Of a DNA stretch of 26,339 nt, positions 1,175 through 26,263 are shown one piece after another. Origin of the DNA: a virus; the IMG/VR virus record IMGVR_UViG_3300042465_000635, positions 1-26,339 of that record. One strand, 5' to 3'. The notes beneath the pieces were generated by a model, which saw nothing but the letters and a program-made list of their open reading frames with translations, made no database searches and had not been told where the DNA came from. Position numbers and translations under genes: made by a program. Within the stretch, counting starts at the first letter, position 1; each line of letters begins with the position of its first letter.

Positions 1175-1642
1175 TTATTTATAAGGTGCGTAAGTTGTTT
1201 TCCCATTCACCCTTATTGCCTTCAAGATTTGCTTTCTTTGCTTACCAGTTGATTCATAACTAACATGAACCCAATCAGGATTGTTGGAATCACCGAACTC
1301 GTAGATAAGTTGGTCAAATTCTAAATTATCCTTGATGTAGTCAAAAACCATTCTATTGGTTACTCCGTTTGGTGTACCATCCATATCTATATCTATCGCT
1401 TCGCCCTGGCAATGCTGTGAGGTCAATGAACCACCAATGGCAGCGTTTAATTCCTTGCTCCTATATCCACTTGAAATATGAATAGGGCATCTAAAATGTT
1501 CCCTAATTGGTTGAAATACTTTTTCCGCTAATAACTTAAAATTAGCAATATGCTCTGCCGTTGGCATATTTGAGATTCCTTTACGCTTTGCTGATTCGGA
1601 CCTGACTACTTCTGACAAATCAAGATGCTCTGACAATTTCAT
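1175..1642 (-). CDS. Peptidase M15 family endolysin
   Basis: This gene encodes 155 residues of the Peptidase_M15_3 type, which cut peptide stems or cross-bridges of peptidoglycan. The zinc-site signature is visible: SGYRS at 58-62, then H77-x6-D84 in SQHCQGEAIDID, and the third ligand H126 in DWVHVSY. The length is normal for the stand-alone catalytic domain. There is no signal peptide and no separate cell-wall-binding domain, so release into the periplasm should depend on a holin. The start overlaps the end of the spanin-like gene by 4 bp. It is the last gene of the lysis cassette and is followed by a terminator. Confidence 0.9.
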   Translation of the reverse strand: MKLSEHLDLSEVVRSESAKRKGISNMPTAEHIANFKLLAEKVFQPIREHFRCPIHISSGYRSKELNAAIGGSLTSQHCQGEAIDIDMDGTPNGVTNRMVFDYIKDNLEFDQLIYEFGDSNNPDWVHVSYESTGKQRKQILKAIRVNGKTTYAPYK

Positions 1643-2130
1643 TTCCTAAGTTTTAAATATATAAATAATGCAATAAGAACCAAAAGTGATATCAACCAAT
1701 TTAAGCGACTATCTGCCTTTCCTTTCCATTCTATTACCTCGCCTCCTAAACGTGCTGAATCTGCCTGTAATAACCTCACACGGGCATTATCAACAATGAA
1801 TGACTTGACTGTGTCATGGATGGTCACAGACTTGATTATATCCCTTGTTTTCCAATTGGTTATATAAACAAATTCGTTTACTTTTTGTGTATCAACTTGA
1901 ATATCTATGTTTACTAAAGTGTCAAACTCAACCAAGGTATCAGACTTAACAATAAAGGTAGTGTCATTGGCACACCATCCTCCCTTTACTACAACCTTTG
2001 CGACTTCTTCAAGTTTATCTTGGTCACGCAAAACCTGCTTAACAGGGTTGCAAGATGTTACCCAAAGAAATAACAAAAGCAATCCCATTGCAATAAGGAG
2101 CAATGTTGGTGCATTAATCTTTGTTTTCAT
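1639..2130 (-). CDS. Candidate unimolecular spanin (u-spanin)
   Basis: This 163-residue protein has both ends built for membranes. Residues 9-26 are a hydrophobic signal ending in a lipobox-like VTSC, with C27 as the candidate lipidated cysteine. Residues about 143-160 (LNWLISLLVLIALFIY) form a C-terminal membrane helix followed by basic residues. Between them is a polar, valine/threonine-rich periplasmic segment. An outer-membrane lipoprotein end plus an inner-membrane anchor in one chain is the defining layout of u-spanins, which fuse the two membranes in the last step of lysis. It sits between a holin-like gene (17 bp overlap) and the endolysin (4 bp overlap). An Rz-like inner-membrane protein with an uncleaved N-terminal anchor is the alternative. 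Confidence 0.6.
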   Translation of the reverse strand: MKTKINAPTLLLIAMGLLLLFLWVTSCNPVKQVLRDQDKLEEVAKVVVKGGWCANDTTFIVKSDTLVEFDTLVNIDIQVDTQKVNEFVYITNWKTRDIIKSVTIHDTVKSFIVDNARVRLLQADSARLGGEVIEWKGKADSRLNWLISLLVLIALFIYLKLRK

Positions 2131-2332
2131 CTTTTTTAAATATTTTCTCTGCTGAAGTTAAACCCAAGCAACCAAAAGCAAGAGCAGACACAGAGTAAAC
2201 CAGTGCTTCACTTGGTTCGGTTTCATGGAATGAGTTATGGTACATTGTTACGCAAATGATGACTACGCAAGTAAATCCGCATAACCTTTTCATTGATAGT
2301 CTGCCGTTTTCCTCACAAAAAAATTGTTTCAT
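2114..2332 (-). CDS. Holin-like membrane protein, 72 aa
   Basis: The product has two hydrophobic segments: residues about 16-31 (LCGFTCVVIICVTMY) and 43-58 (ALVYSVSALAFGCLGL). They are joined by a short acidic loop (HETEPSE) and followed by a charged tail (EKIFKKDENKD). This is the shape of a small class II holin, which forms inner-membrane holes for endolysin release. The gene lies 3 bp after the PAS-domain gene and overlaps the spanin candidate by 17 bp. Three membrane proteins precede the endolysin here, so this one could also be an antiholin or a holin subunit. Confidence 0.55.
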   Translation of the reverse strand: MKQFFCEENGRLSMKRLCGFTCVVIICVTMYHNSFHETEPSEALVYSVSALAFGCLGLTSAEKIFKKDENKD

Positions 2333-2335
2333 ATT

Positions 2336-3076
2336 TTATTTTTTATCCTGGGTTGCATATTTAATACCCATAATCGTTCCTACTATTGAGAATGCATTTG
2401 TCAATAGTACGCTAAACATATTTGACCAGGTAGAACCTATAATCTGTGTATCCTTGCCAGTAACCATTGCCATCCAATACATCACAGTCGTAACCAAACC
2501 AACACCGACAATGACCACCAACGCAACCACAACGATTGTTTTAATTAATTCGGATTGTGATTTCTTCATCAGTATATCCAAATCGTTTAACGCAACGTTT
2601 TTTTCAACCTCAATGGCGTTTTTTAGTTGTTGAGATTTATCCAATTCAAGTTGCAAGTCTTTAGAAAGAGCATCAATCTTATTCTTGTAATTGATAGTTT
2701 CCGTTATATCAGTCGCAATCTTCATCACCTTTGTAATGTTGTTGTTTTCGTCAAAAATTGGATTGTATGTCGCTTGCAAAAATATGGGCGCGCCATCCAT
2801 TTTTTTCCTTTCAAATTCACCCTCAAAAAACTTTCCGCTTCTTAGCGTTTCCCAAAACTTTTTATACTCATCAGACTTAGAATACTCATAACTGACAAAA
2901 ATGCTATGATGCTTCCCGATTAGTTGCTTATGGTCTTCCTCTTGATATCCCATTGCCAAAAGAAACATTGAGTTCATCCCTAAGATGTAACCCTCAAGGT
3001 CAAAATAAATAATAGCATTGGAACGATTAATCGCCTCAAGTCTACTTAATAGTTCCTCTTTAGATAGGTTCTTCAT
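2336..3076 (-). CDS. PAS-domain protein with C-terminal holin-like membrane hairpin
   Basis: The 246-residue protein has three parts. Residues about 10-127 form a PAS domain of the kind found in chemoreceptors and redox sensors: IIYFDLEGYILGMN at 22-35, GKHHSIF at 54-60, the EGEFERKKMDG turn at 85-95 and FLQATYNPIFDE at 99-110, ending KIATDIT. Residues about 130-175 are a charged, coiled-coil-like linker. Residues about 178-205 and 218-238 are two hydrophobic segments. No kinase, GGDEF or methyl-accepting domain is present. PAS domains sense oxygen, redox state or small ligands, often through a bound flavin or haem; the ligand here is unknown. The gene sits in the lysis cassette, overlapping the upstream holin-like gene by 4 bp. 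I infer a signal-responsive holin or antiholin. Confidence 0.75.
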   Translation of the reverse strand: MKNLSKEELLSRLEAINRSNAIIYFDLEGYILGMNSMFLLAMGYQEEDHKQLIGKHHSIFVSYEYSKSDEYKKFWETLRSGKFFEGEFERKKMDGAPIFLQATYNPIFDENNNITKVMKIATDITETINYKNKIDALSKDLQLELDKSQQLKNAIEVEKNVALNDLDILMKKSQSELIKTIVVVALVVIVGVGLVTTVMYWMAMVTGKDTQIIGSTWSNMFSVLLTNAFSIVGTIMGIKYATQDKK

Positions 3077-3234
3077 TTGGTCTTTAACTCCTTATAAAGC
3101 CTAACCAAATTGTAAACTATTGTCGTTAGTCCTGCTAAAATAGCAACAACCACACCGACCTCGGAAAGGGCAATATCTGCCCAAACCTTAATCAATATGG
3201 TTGCCACGCACATTCCAATGCTTTTACTATCCAT
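3073..3234 (-). CDS. Small holin-like membrane protein, 53 aa
   Basis: I choose the ATG at 3232-3234 because an earlier in-frame ATG would add an 11-residue basic stretch (MQKNSKKRRTK) lying wholly inside the preceding gene. The 53-residue product has two hydrophobic stretches (IGMCVATILIKVWADIAL and VGVVVAILAGLTTIVYNLV) and a basic tail RLYKELKTK. Small two-span proteins with this ending are common in Bacteroidota phage lysis regions and are usually labelled holins. It overlaps the coiled-coil peptide gene by 8 bp (ATGGATAG) and the PAS-domain gene by 4 bp, so the three are likely translated together. Confidence 0.6.
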   Translation of the reverse strand: MDSKSIGMCVATILIKVWADIALSEVGVVVAILAGLTTIVYNLVRLYKELKTK

Positions 3235-3358
3235 TTTCGTTCTTCTCTTTTTGGAGTTCTTCTGCAATCTTTTGGTTCACCTCTTGGAGTTGCTTTTGCA
3301 AGTATTCCAAATTACTCAAAATGTCATAGGCTGCTGCTTTCAATTCAATAAGTGTCAT
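3227..3358 (-). CDS. Coiled-coil microprotein, 43 aa
   Basis: The ATG at 3356-3358 opens a 43-residue frame beginning MTLIELKAAAYDILSNLEYL. It continues in Leu/Gln/Glu/Lys-rich heptads to a charged end (KEKNENG). It looks like one long amphipathic helix able to form a coiled coil. Its stop overlaps the start of the holin-like gene by 8 bp. Short coiled-coil proteins next to holins occur in many Bacteroidota phages, and I know no proven function. A lysis regulator or a small structural part are both possible. Confidence 0.6.
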   Translation of the reverse strand: MTLIELKAAAYDILSNLEYLQKQLQEVNQKIAEELQKEKNENG

Positions 3359-22542: not shown

Positions 22543-24033
22543 TTACTCCGTTGTTTTGATATATTTTATGCCATTTCTTTTAACTTCCAAAGTTGGGTCA
22601 AGTTTCATCATCCTGTCCACTATGACTTGGCAGTATTTTGGGTCTAATTCCATGCCATAGCACTTGCGTTTGAGTTGGTGACTTGCCACCATTGTTGAAC
22701 CGCTACCGAGGAAAAAGTCTAAAACCGAACCATCATCTGGACAACTTGAAAGGATTGCCCTTTCACATAATGGAATCGGTTTAGGTGTTGCGTGACCCCC
22801 TTCGCTTCCATCTTTTTGATGTCTGCTAAAGTGCCAAACGTTATTCATATTATCGTGTACATTGTTAAAATATGCACGGGTTGAATAGTATTCCTTCTTT
22901 AATGCATCATATTCCTTCTTTAATGCATCATATTCCTTGTGAAATGCATCCCCATTGGCAGCGTTCCTTATAGCATTATAATGCTCTTCAGTAGGAAATG
23001 CCCATTGACTTTTTGCGAAGTAATGACTTGCACTTGTTTTGCCAGTTATTTGAATAATCTTTTCAGTGTTCCATCCAATCTTATTCCTTTGAGAAACCAA
23101 ATATTCTCTGATAGATTCAAAGCCTTGAAAATAATTATCTGCATTGTTATTAAACCCTTGAACTCCTAACATAACAAAGAGGCATTTTTCATCTGCCGTT
23201 GCGTAAGACCTTGTTTGGTCTGAGTTCTGACTTTGCCCGTGACCTTTATCCCAAGTTAATAAATTTCTAAATGTTGCCTTTTGTTCTTTAATGTATGGTT
23301 TCAGAATGCCACTATAAATATCCATCAATGGTTCATCTATTCCCCAACAATACCAACTTCCGTTTTCTTTTAGGTGCATAAATTGTAAAGCAATCCATTC
23401 CCTATTGAAATCAAGCAAATCATCATAATTGAGATTATCATTTAGCACCCCTTCGTTTTCTTTTTTCATTCCATAAGGAGGGTCATTGTGTGCCATATCT
23501 GCCTTCTGCCCATTCATCAACTTTGCAACTTGGTCGCTATCTGTTGAATCACCACAGAGCAAACGATGCTCACCTATCTCAAACAAATCCCCAAGAACGA
23601 TATCGGTCTCAATCCCACCATCAGGTACATCAAACTCATCTTCTTCTGCTTCAAGGACTTCGGGTTTAAAGTCGGGTATATCTAATCCCCAATCTGTCAA
23701 CTGTTCTGCATCCCAATTGTTCGCAAGGTCTTCCCAATCCCATTCACCGAACCCTACATTATCCTTAATGATAAACTGCTTCTGTTGGTCCTCTGTCAGT
23801 TCCTCTGCTTTAATGATTGCTACCTCTTTAAGTCCTGCTTCCTTACACGCTTTTAATCGCATATTCCCACCAAGTACAACCATATCCGCATTCACTACGA
23901 TTGGTCTGATGTTGAGCATTTCAGGGAACTCCTTGATTGACTTAACTAACTTTTGGAACTTGTCATCTTTGATTATTCTTGGATTGTTCGGGTTAGATTT
24001 TACCTCGCTGATTTTAACTGTGATTGGATTCAT
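22543..24033 (-). CDS. ParB-domain DNA methyltransferase fusion
   Basis: The 496-residue protein has an N-terminal ParB/sulfiredoxin-like domain (residues about 1-115) with NPNNPRIIKDD and VVLGGNMRLKACKEAG. A methyltransferase follows from about 147: DLFEIGEHRLLCGDS, catalytic motif IV NDPPYG (183-188) and C-terminal AdoMet motif VLDFFLGSGSTMVA (437-450). Motif IV before motif I gives the beta-type order, and DPPY predicts N6-adenine methylation. The target-recognition region contains a tandem heptad repeat at about residues 361-381. No restriction gene is next to it, so it is probably an orphan methylase that shields phage DNA. It shares one base with the upstream methyltransferase gene. Confidence 0.9.
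   Translation of the reverse strand: MNPITVKISEVKSNPNNPRIIKDDKFQKLVKSIKEFPEMLNIRPIVVNADMVVLGGNMRLKACKEAGLKEVAIIKAEELTEDQQKQFIIKDNVGFGEWDWEDLANNWDAEQLTDWGLDIPDFKPEVLEAEEDEFDVPDGGIETDIVLGDLFEIGEHRLLCGDSTDSDQVAKLMNGQKADMAHNDPPYGMKKENEGVLNDNLNYDDLLDFNREWIALQFMHLKENGSWYCWGIDEPLMDIYSGILKPYIKEQKATFRNLLTWDKGHGQSQNSDQTRSYATADEKCLFVMLGVQGFNNNADNYFQGFESIREYLVSQRNKIGWNTEKIIQITGKTSASHYFAKSQWAFPTEEHYNAIRNAANGDAFHKEYDALKKEYDALKKEYYSTRAYFNNVHDNMNNVWHFSRHQKDGSEGGHATPKPIPLCERAILSSCPDDGSVLDFFLGSGSTMVASHQLKRKCYGMELDPKYCQVIVDRMMKLDPTLEVKRNGIKYIKTTE
22890..22952 (-). repeat. 21-bp tandem repeat inside the DNA methyltransferase gene
   Basis: Two identical 21-bp units (22890-22910 and 22911-22931) are followed by a diverged third (22932-22952). 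They encode three heptads of KEYDALK type. The unit length keeps the frame, so copy number could vary without breaking the gene. Confidence 0.85.
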
Positions 24034-24704
24034 TATTTAAGTTTAGTTAATACTCTGTTATGCACCAGGTTCAGTTCGTGCTTCCATTGTTCTGTCTGTC
24101 CTTCCTTTGGTAGGAACTGGTCTACTGCGTTTGATACAGATTGAATCCCTGCGAAATAACCCCAAGGCATTGGGATTGCATTGTTACAGTCATCAATTAC
24201 CAGTGTCCCTCCTACCTTTAGGATTGGGAGATAGTTCTTGAGGTCAGACATTACCACCTCATAAGTATGTCCTCCATCTATGTATAGGACATCAGGAGGA
24301 TTCTGAGAGGCAAGATTCACCGCATTTGGATTGGTAGAATCTAATCGGATTAACTCATAGTCTGCCGTGATATCAAACTCATCGTGCAGTCTTATTATGT
24401 CTGCTTCGTAGTCAGATTCCCAATGTCCATCGGATGTGTCCAATGGAGTTATCCCGATTCGCCTAACCTTTTTGCCGTGTCTTTCTGCAAGTAGAGCAAC
24501 AAGTCCAAGAATCTGTCCTCTGAAGACCCCGATTTCCATAAAGGTAAACTCTTGAGGCATCCTTGCCACAATATCATTCCACATCCAAATGAAACACCTT
24601 TCCCCGAATCCGAAAGCGTTTGCTTCTATCCAGTCCCGATATCCTTTTAGTTCTGTGTCTGCGTTTACCTTGTCGGTGTATTCCTTAACTATCCATTCCA
24701 TCAT
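24033..24704 (-). CDS. AdoMet-dependent methyltransferase (Methyltransf_24/CmcI-like)
   Basis: The 223-residue protein has the class I fold: motif I FMEIGVFRGQ (55-64), an acidic strand end near IGITPLDTSD (83-92), and the family marker YIDGGHTYEVVMSDL (141-155), followed by LVIDDC (168-173). Methyltransf_24 and CmcI-like enzymes often act on sugars or small molecules in glycan clusters. It overlaps the collagen-type glycosyltransferase by 4 bp, so a sugar added by the neighbouring enzymes is the likely substrate. Methylating a nucleotide or protein is an alternative. Confidence 0.8.
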   Translation of the reverse strand: MMEWIVKEYTDKVNADTELKGYRDWIEANAFGFGERCFIWMWNDIVARMPQEFTFMEIGVFRGQILGLVALLAERHGKKVRRIGITPLDTSDGHWESDYEADIIRLHDEFDITADYELIRLDSTNPNAVNLASQNPPDVLYIDGGHTYEVVMSDLKNYLPILKVGGTLVIDDCNNAIPMPWGYFAGIQSVSNAVDQFLPKEGQTEQWKHELNLVHNRVLTKLK

Positions 24705-25324
24705 AGTGCATAAAATTTAGTCATGTCGGTTTTCCCATTCCCATGAATGAACATCGGGAAGGTATGTGTCTTATTGTTGTATAATCGGTTATAGGTTAAT
24801 GTAAAGTCACCATCAACCTCAAACGCTACTGATTGGAATATGTTGCAGTAATCAAGTCCTATCTTGTCAGGCATTGAAAGGAATCGTTCTGTGTACCATC
24901 TTTGGTCATCATCCTCAAACTTAGGAGGATTACTATGGTAGATATCAAGGAAGTCCTTTTTGTTTCCGTAAATCTGCCCACTATTTAGGAATTTCCATTC
25001 ATGGTCTACCACAGGGAACATCCCCATCTTATGAGTATCAGGATAACATCCTTTCTCTGAACTTATGATAAGACCGCTTTGTCCTCTGTGTTTATAGTTA
25101 AACTCATCAGGATTTGATATGCAGTAATTGTCATAAGCATCCAAGTAGATGAAGTCCTCCGTATCGGTAGAAAGAAGGTACTCGTAAAGTCCTATAATCT
25201 TTGTTCCAAACCCTTTCCACTCTCTGACTATTGGATGATATGCCCACCCGTGTTGCTTTAAGGATTCTTCCAACTTCAACCAACCTGCGTGATTAGGATT
25301 GTCCAGTGATACGATTACTTTCAT
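24701..25324 (-). CDS. PLOD/LH3-like (collagen-type) glycosyltransferase
   Basis: The 207-residue protein matches the glycosyltransferase domain of procollagen lysyl hydroxylase/glucosyltransferase (LH3, PLOD1-3 GT domain). It has FIYLDAYD (58-65) with a D62-x-x-D65 metal motif, FLNSGQIYG (112-120), DDDQRWYT (138-145), IFQS (162-165) and the final HGNG (194-197) with H194 as the likely third manganese ligand. It is shorter than the eukaryotic domain but keeps all these blocks in order. It would transfer a sugar from a nucleotide-sugar donor. The acceptor is unknown and could be a protein or another sugar. It overlaps both neighbours by 4 bp. Confidence 0.8.
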   Translation of the reverse strand: MKVIVSLDNPNHAGWLKLEESLKQHGWAYHPIVREWKGFGTKIIGLYEYLLSTDTEDFIYLDAYDNYCISNPDEFNYKHRGQSGLIISSEKGCYPDTHKMGMFPVVDHEWKFLNSGQIYGNKKDFLDIYHSNPPKFEDDDQRWYTERFLSMPDKIGLDYCNIFQSVAFEVDGDFTLTYNRLYNNKTHTFPMFIHGNGKTDMTKFYAL

Positions 25325-26103
25325 TGAAAAGGATTATAGTAGATTGGTCTTGTACCGTGATAGTATTCGTGTGTCATCTTGATTACCTGTTGGGTTACCT
25401 CTGCACTATGCTTCTCCTTCCACGTTTGGTATTCCGTTTCACCTTTGTCTATATGCTCTATCTCAATATGAGGCAGAAACACATTCCACATACCTGCTAC
25501 TGTTGACCTATGAGATGCAAGGACATCATCGTAACCATAGAGGTTAGGTTGGCAAAGATACCCTATTTTGTCAAGCAAAGCGGATGAGTACATTTGGCAA
25601 GTACCGATAATGTGATGGCACTTCTCAACTATTATCCAACGCTGACCTGCGAAGTGTGGTAGCATAATCAACTCGCTTCTCCAATCAGGCAAGGCATGGT
25701 TCGGTTCTTCCCAACAATCTTTACGCTTCAGACCTACTATCCCAATTCTTGCTTCCCTTTCTATTGCCTCCACCATTTCTTTCACCCAATCATAATTGTC
25801 TATGATTACATCGTTGTCCATCTTGATGCAGTGTTGACCTTCTTTTCTATTCTTCCAAGCAAGATTAATCGCTTCTGCCGTTCCAATGTTCTGCTCATTG
25901 GTTATTACATTGATAAAACCATCTGCTTCATACCCTTTTATAATATCCTTTGTTGCTTGACAAGAGTTATTATCTATAATCCAAAACTCATGGTCATAAA
26001 AGATATGCTGAAAATGTAATTCATTTAAGACCTTTTCGGTTAGTTCTGACCTTTTGTTCTCTTCGGTATCGTGTACCGCCATTGCGATTAGTACCTTATC
26101 CAT
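25321..26103 (-). CDS. Family 2 (GT-A) glycosyltransferase
   Basis: I start at the ATG at 26101-26103 because the sequence from there (MDKVLIAMAVHDTEENKRSE) opens the Rossmann-like fold directly; a longer start would add 34 basic residues that belong to the overlapping small gene. The 260-residue protein has FWIIDNNS, ITNEQNIGTAEAINLAWKNR and the metal motif MDNDV (a DxD), then MVEAIEREARIGIVGLKR. A region CQMYSSALLDKIGYL with YGYDDVLA follows, fitting the acceptor-side acid of GT-A enzymes. It adds a sugar to an unknown acceptor. It is the first of the four tightly overlapping accessory genes. Confidence 0.85.
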   Translation of the reverse strand: MDKVLIAMAVHDTEENKRSELTEKVLNELHFQHIFYDHEFWIIDNNSCQATKDIIKGYEADGFINVITNEQNIGTAEAINLAWKNRKEGQHCIKMDNDVIIDNYDWVKEMVEAIEREARIGIVGLKRKDCWEEPNHALPDWRSELIMLPHFAGQRWIIVEKCHHIIGTCQMYSSALLDKIGYLCQPNLYGYDDVLASHRSTVAGMWNVFLPHIEIEHIDKGETEYQTWKEKHSAEVTQQVIKMTHEYYHGTRPIYYNPFQ

Positions 26104-26263
26104 TGCGTTTATTTTTTGTGTTCTTTTCCTTTGGTTTCTTGTAAGAATATTTACCCCCTGCAAGTATTGCGGTCCATACCTCAGTCGCCTTCTCTTTTGT
26201 ATCATAGATGCATTGACCTGAACCGATGCGATACTTTCCGTTGCTGCATTTAATTACTGGCAT
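26096..26263 (-). CDS. Small Cys-containing protein, 55 aa
   Basis: The ATG at 26261-26263 opens a 55-residue frame. It begins MPVIKCSNGKYRIGSGQCIY, a compact CSNGKYRIGSGQC block that I recognise as recurring in small phage proteins. A helical segment DTKEKATEVWTAILAGG follows, then a very basic tail (KKPKEKNTKNKRNG). The two cysteines may bind metal or form a turn. The stop overlaps the start of the GT2 gene by 8 bp (ATGGATAA). The function is unknown. Confidence 0.65.
   Translation of the reverse strand: MPVIKCSNGKYRIGSGQCIYDTKEKATEVWTAILAGGKYSYKKPKEKNTKNKRNG

Follow-up and report, generated by a model that had tools for sequence, protein, structure and literature searches.

A phage PAS sensor joined to a near-invariant membrane hairpin beside lysis genes, and its two-component sister form

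The window, i.e., the whole stretch of DNA that was analysed (26,339 nucleotides), is the IMG/VR virus record IMGVR_UViG_3300042465_000635. Its main subject is a minus-strand gene at 2336..3076, encoding a 246-aa PAS-coiled coil-membrane hairpin protein, as defined from the open reading frame list, Pfam, an AlphaFold2 model, and its relatives. From the N-terminus, and all on the minus strand, this protein is made up of a PAS domain (residues 22-126, 2699..3013), a charged coiled-coil, or signalling, helix delimited by the model and by conservation (residues 128-178, 2543..2695), a first transmembrane segment, TM1, placed by sequence and model (residues 180-203, 2468..2539), and a 33-residue block, TQIIGSTWSNMFSVLLTNAFSIVGTIMGIKYAT, that comprises the loop and TM2 (residues 210-242, 2351..2449).

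The neighbouring genes lie on the same strand. Upstream, and overlapping the PAS-hairpin gene by 4 nt, is a small holin-like gene with two transmembrane segments (3073..3267; the open reading frame runs from a TTG, with a likely ATG start at 3234), which gives a weak match to the holin family phrog_20 (E 0.01). On the 3' side, after a gap of 3 nt, comes a second small protein with two transmembrane segments, h78 (2114..2332), which is the commonest neighbour in the family and likely a holin. It is followed by a unimolecular-spanin-like protein (1639..2130), whose sequence has both an N-terminal lipobox (VTSC) and a C-terminal transmembrane segment, and then by an M15 peptidase endolysin (1175..1642; PF08291, 7e-19; phrog_894 endolysin, 4e-37). 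Elsewhere in the window, upstream of the terminase region, inspection by eye of the minus strand at 22543-26205 showed a ParB-like plus DNA methylase gene, a SAM methyltransferase-like gene, and two glycosyltransferase-like genes, read without a family search.

The PAS assignment relies on several models. In Pfam, PAS_9 matches residues 22-126 above its cut-off (E 4.9e-12) and PAS_3 matches at 1.5e-10, while the NCBIfam model TIGR00229 (sensory_box) matches at 3.3e-13. Besides PAS models, no Pfam family reaches its own cut-off in the window protein, and no kinase, GGDEF, or MCP domain was found in it with Pfam. The AlphaFold2 model (mean pLDDT 73) has a PAS fold on the N-terminal side, an unbroken helix (125-206) in which the coiled coil is continuous with TM1, and a second helix (211-242); Foldseek and VIA-align back the general PAS fold. 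An earlier note on this DNA had described a PAS domain, a charged coiled coil, and two C-terminal membrane segments, free of kinase or chemoreceptor output and set in a lysis cassette; the family models, the predicted structure, and the tight spacing of the neighbouring genes agree with it on each of these points.

The profile matches in the PDB are flavin PAS domains, namely MmoS (6e-9), Aer (2e-6), and NifL (9e-4), together with phototropin LOV. The primary determinant of FAD-binding PAS domains is a Trp on F-alpha, with His and Asn as secondary determinants whose conservation varies by cluster (PMC10468136), and the FAD contacts of Aer are given in PMC9668731. In the PDB profile alignment, Aer W70 and H53 correspond to W75 and H57 of the window protein, and both residues are present in 159/159 PAS copies tested. 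Two other residues of the Aer pocket are changed (N85 to R90, R115 to A121); the former is the position of the secondary Asn, which reportedly does not occur in every FAD cluster. As the Trp and His pattern is found in all copies tested, and as the related tandem-PAS receptors BdlA and McpS have been assigned to FAD (PMC8694187), the PAS domains of this family likely bind FAD.

The window protein thus resembles the chemoreceptors Aer, AerC, BdlA, and McpS, as well as MmoS and NifL, in PAS sequence, in the marker Trp and His, and in the occurrence of tandem PAS domains; Aer is likewise built of a PAS, a linker, and a transmembrane hairpin. The tandem-PAS chemoreceptor frame of record MT836939 is 40% identical to it over the PAS. 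Unlike the FAD-PAS sensors, the phage protein has no HAMP, MCP, or kinase domain (the MCP signalling domain expected of a chemoreceptor is not matched with Pfam), and it ends in an ultraconserved hairpin beside lysis genes.

Scanning viral contigs with the window protein gave 149 relatives, the best 80 of which were kept; the C-terminal alignment, used as the query against IMG/VR, yielded 552 confirmed matches, the samples being the best 80 loci per scan. Architecture and neighbourhood were alike in both. Two layouts share the coil and hairpin, one with a single PAS (about 246-262 aa) and the other with tandem PAS domains (about 370 aa), the latter making up about half of the family. Across 84,980 genomes of bacteria and archaea, the C-terminal alignment found no match, and the hairpin is absent from 50,697 phage records and 72,556 plasmid records, so that, as far as these collections reach, the family appears to be confined to uncultured phages. 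Record MT836939 and 'Listeria phage LM 4-14-1' were rejected as members, since their frames encode MCPs in what is apparently bacterial sequence in unverified records. Cellulophaga phage phi19:1 gp108 (KC821607 54202-54924; L274:5703-6425) was rejected as a homologue, its topology being different and a sequence relation absent: it has a TM-coil-PAS-like order, with the transmembrane segment first and the PAS-like fold last, the latter recognised by structure match only. In cultured Cellulophaga phages, a GH19/PG-binding endolysin lies about 1.5 kb downstream of gp108, which is a cultivable analogue of the PAS-hairpin protein, without sequence homology.

Linkage to lysis genes was assessed in 73 distinct loci flanked by 2 kb or more on each side. 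An endolysin-type gene (M15, GH19, GH24, or PG-binding) lies within 1.5 kb in 65 of them, within 600 nt in 57, and within 100 nt in 39, often with 4-nt overlaps, for a chance expectation of about 10-20% if one or two endolysin genes were placed randomly, given the lengths of the contigs. The neighbour clusters identified by profiles include M15, GH19 (phrog_181 endolysin, 2e-66), GH24 phage lysozyme (4e-38), and PG-binding endolysin-like proteins, along with Phage_holin_4_1, spanin-like proteins, and h78 (84 of 111 distinct loci). Along the tree of the PAS protein, the adjacent endolysin switches class at least 28 times, which argues for a link to lysis beyond shared descent. These swaps are the strongest contextual evidence that the PAS-hairpin protein would be part of the lysis function. 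In eight of the 73 loci, no endolysin was recognised close by; two of these have one farther off in the record. The exceptions include L055, L057, and L061, which together with L144 belong to a tandem-PAS clade located next to a 5'-3' exonuclease-like gene and out of reach of any endolysin.

The C-terminal block is the most constrained part of the protein. Residues 210-242 are identical in 70/70 distinct genes, while nearly every codon that has synonyms occurs in several variants. Among 44 single-PAS genes, the mean pairwise amino acid identity is 0.82 for the PAS, 0.71 for the coil, 0.74 for TM1, and 1.000 for the block, the corresponding identities at fourfold sites being 0.40, 0.44, 0.40, and 0.40. 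Since the fourfold sites of the block vary like those of the rest of the gene, the constraint acts at the protein level; a DNA- or RNA-level cause was discarded on the same grounds, no Rfam family being matched within the window. An artefact of the search pattern was also discarded, as a control sample collected with a coil DNA pattern blind to the hairpin (n=80) still held the exact block in 75/80 cases, with S222G/V223I/I238V in 4/80.

Both segments of the hairpin are predicted to cross the membrane (TM1 180-203, TM2 217-238), with KK preceding TM1 and K or KK at the C-terminus, and TM2 carries a polar face (hydrophobic moment, p 0.01-0.03). Homology to h78 was rejected (hhalign probability 0.4%), as was a hairpin-only protein made from an internal start, the candidate Met, M170, being Ile in many members. 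The module is unnamed in Pfam, PHROGs, NCBIfam, and PADLOC. By its location next to endolysin and spanin genes and its predicted transmembrane segments with charged flanks, the protein looks like a holin; among the holin models of Pfam, PHROGs, and NCBIfam, none matches it, and its size (246-372 aa) exceeds that of typical holins. Class II holins (two transmembrane segments, N-in/C-in), pinholins, and antiholins share with it the two segments, the charged cytoplasmic ends, the polar TM2 face, and the cassette position, but it differs from them by about 170-300 extra sensor residues, a near-invariant TM2, and the lack of a holin-model match.

Given that the holin-like partners vary between genomes while the block stays constant, we infer that the hairpin is kept constant by self-assembly or by a conserved host target, rather than by a varying phage partner. 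The second option leads to another explanation, in which the hairpin would attach to a conserved membrane component of the host (from respiration, the divisome, or transport) and the sensor couples the state of the host to that target, the gene adjoining the lysis genes since all of them act late. A near-invariant TM2, set against holin-like partners and endolysins that change from genome to genome, is easier to reconcile with an unchanging target or with self-assembly than with a varying phage partner; nevertheless, the close translational coupling of the gene to lysis genes and its survival of many endolysin swaps make such a host-directed device unlikely.

A superinfection exclusion or abortive device in the style of RexAB or T4 Imm was also considered, in which the hairpin would depolarise or seal the membrane at a second infection. 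Late or accessory genes are known to include exclusion genes, and a sensor joined to a small membrane effector would suit such a role. However, PADLOC gave no match beyond one weak coil match, so a known defence system was rejected, and the fixed position in the lysis operon, as opposed to variable accessory loci, as well as the redox-type PAS input, render exclusion improbable.

A sister form came to light when L177, a divergent member with 63% identity to the window protein, was used as the query. The matches cover the coil and hairpin only, in proteins of 190-229 aa in which another N-terminal domain replaces the PAS. This PAS-less protein is encoded by the third gene of an operon that comprises a PAS-histidine kinase, a 143-aa receiver, and the coil-hairpin gene. 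In the 46 distinct loci that extend 2.5 kb upstream, the hairpin gene adjoins a receiver gene in every case (46/46) and is accompanied by the kinase in 42; the overlap between the receiver and hairpin genes is mostly 1 or 4 nt. The receiver scored above the PF00072 cut-off in 3/3 cases tested and keeps the acidic pair, the acceptor Asp, the Ser, and the Lys (n=43). The kinase keeps an HATPase_c domain and its H, N, G1, and G2 boxes (H-box EHAAKILRHDMHSGIN, DNLIRNGLKYNDS, DNGRG, and GxGLGLNI), and its PAS is about 55% identical to that of L177. With its PAS-histidine kinase boxes and its receiver residues (D-D, D, S, K), the sister form is like bacterial two-component systems, from which it differs in being phage-encoded, with a single-domain receiver that has no DNA-binding output and a 1-4 nt overlap with the hairpin gene.

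Each of 19 long records has one hairpin, 12 being PAS-fusion records without this receiver and 7 being operon records with it. In a coil-hairpin tree built after dropping truncated and very long-branched rows, the fusion and operon forms are parted by one change (support 98); the four PAS/non-PAS switches of the initial tree were reduced to that one by this removal. Of 22 records in which a GH19 or M15 gene was detectable along with the operon, 16 have the endolysin within 4 kb, for 2.1 expected from random placement, and the remaining 6 have it 6-80 kb away. One operon copy, L352, is in a contig of a metagenome-assembled bacterial bin, although that contig may itself be viral. In the model of the PAS-less form (L353-L431), an unbroken helix of about 149 residues joins a small N-terminal domain to TM2, giving a rod some 200 angstroms long that has no match in the PDB, where the best hit was no better than E 9. 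Two tandem PAS-histidine kinase-like genes were seen upstream of the receiver in L407, L411, L413, L415, L416, L424, and L428. Kinase N-termini also vary: in L347:2428-4356 and L287:3716-5395, one kinase carries a GAF-like domain and the other two transmembrane helices, yet their last PAS, H-box, and ATPase stay similar, which suggests that input domains have been exchanged.

Because the two inputs, PAS fusion and kinase/receiver operon, are mutually exclusive alternatives, they provide an independent indication that the hairpin is the output of a signalling chain. As both forms share the hairpin, with one per record, the window protein represents the one-component version of a phage signalling device that has a lysis-linked membrane hairpin as its output. 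PAS domains can serve as scaffolds, and the loss of two FAD contacts of Aer would suit a ligand-free dimerisation scaffold in an ordinary hairpin holin or holin-assembly factor, but the pocket His and Trp invariant in every copy, the tandem PAS in about half of the family, and the replacement of the PAS by a receiver and a kinase with complete catalytic boxes, which leaves signalling as the common theme, make this very doubtful.

The reading preferred here is that of a single-chain phage sensor-effector, the hairpin output of which is most likely a signal-gated holin or antiholin that sets the time of lysis (a probability of roughly 0.6). A cytoplasmic PAS of the Aer/AerC/BdlA type, probably with FAD, would read the redox or energy state; its signal would alter the helix packing of the coiled coil, the helix of which continues into TM1; and the membrane hairpin, N-in/C-in, would act as the output element, opening or restraining a membrane lesion and thereby setting lysis time. 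In large phages, the PAS-histidine kinase and the receiver would drive the same hairpin instead, the phosphorylated receiver presumably docking on the N-terminal domain of the hairpin protein. We infer the FAD, the direction of signalling, and the permeabilisation of the membrane by the hairpin. Control of membrane permeabilisation as the output is indicated by the place in the lysis operon, the polar-faced, near-invariant TM2, and the persistence through endolysin swaps, and the PAS-hairpin protein likely controls lysis. Another small transmembrane frame, a potential holin, is present in 70 of the 73 loci and absent in only 3, so that the PAS protein was discarded as the sole holin candidate, and a role as antiholin or regulator is possible. 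The more specific proposal that pathways of the phage's own, FAD-PAS fusion or phosphorelay, gate a near-invariant pore-forming hairpin, the redox or energy state of the host deciding the burst, is advanced tentatively, at somewhat short of even odds.

The earlier note had proposed a sensory holin or antiholin, and had named homologues lying mostly away from lysis genes as an argument against it. Since an endolysin gene lies no more than 1.5 kb away in 65 of 73 loci, a sensor-hairpin fusion tied to lysis genes, apparently undescribed, stands, while its action as a holin or antiholin keeps the probability given above. If the phage protein does gate lysis on a signal, it would be akin to the T4 RI and lambda S107 antiholins, differing from them by a cytoplasmic redox-type sensor instead of a periplasmic superinfection sensor. 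The open-access literature yielded neither a PAS or sensor holin nor a phage two-component system linked to a hole-forming module.

No life-history decision is more central to a lytic phage than when to lyse, and the timers known so far are holin chemistry, antiholins, and superinfection signals. Coupling a membrane hairpin of the lysis region to a dedicated intracellular sensor, or to a two-component system carried by the phage, would constitute a new principle. Well over 500 uncultured phage contigs carry the sensor-hairpin system, and the question of whether phages read the energy state of their host before lysis becomes directly testable. Viruses with this system may do so before bursting the host.
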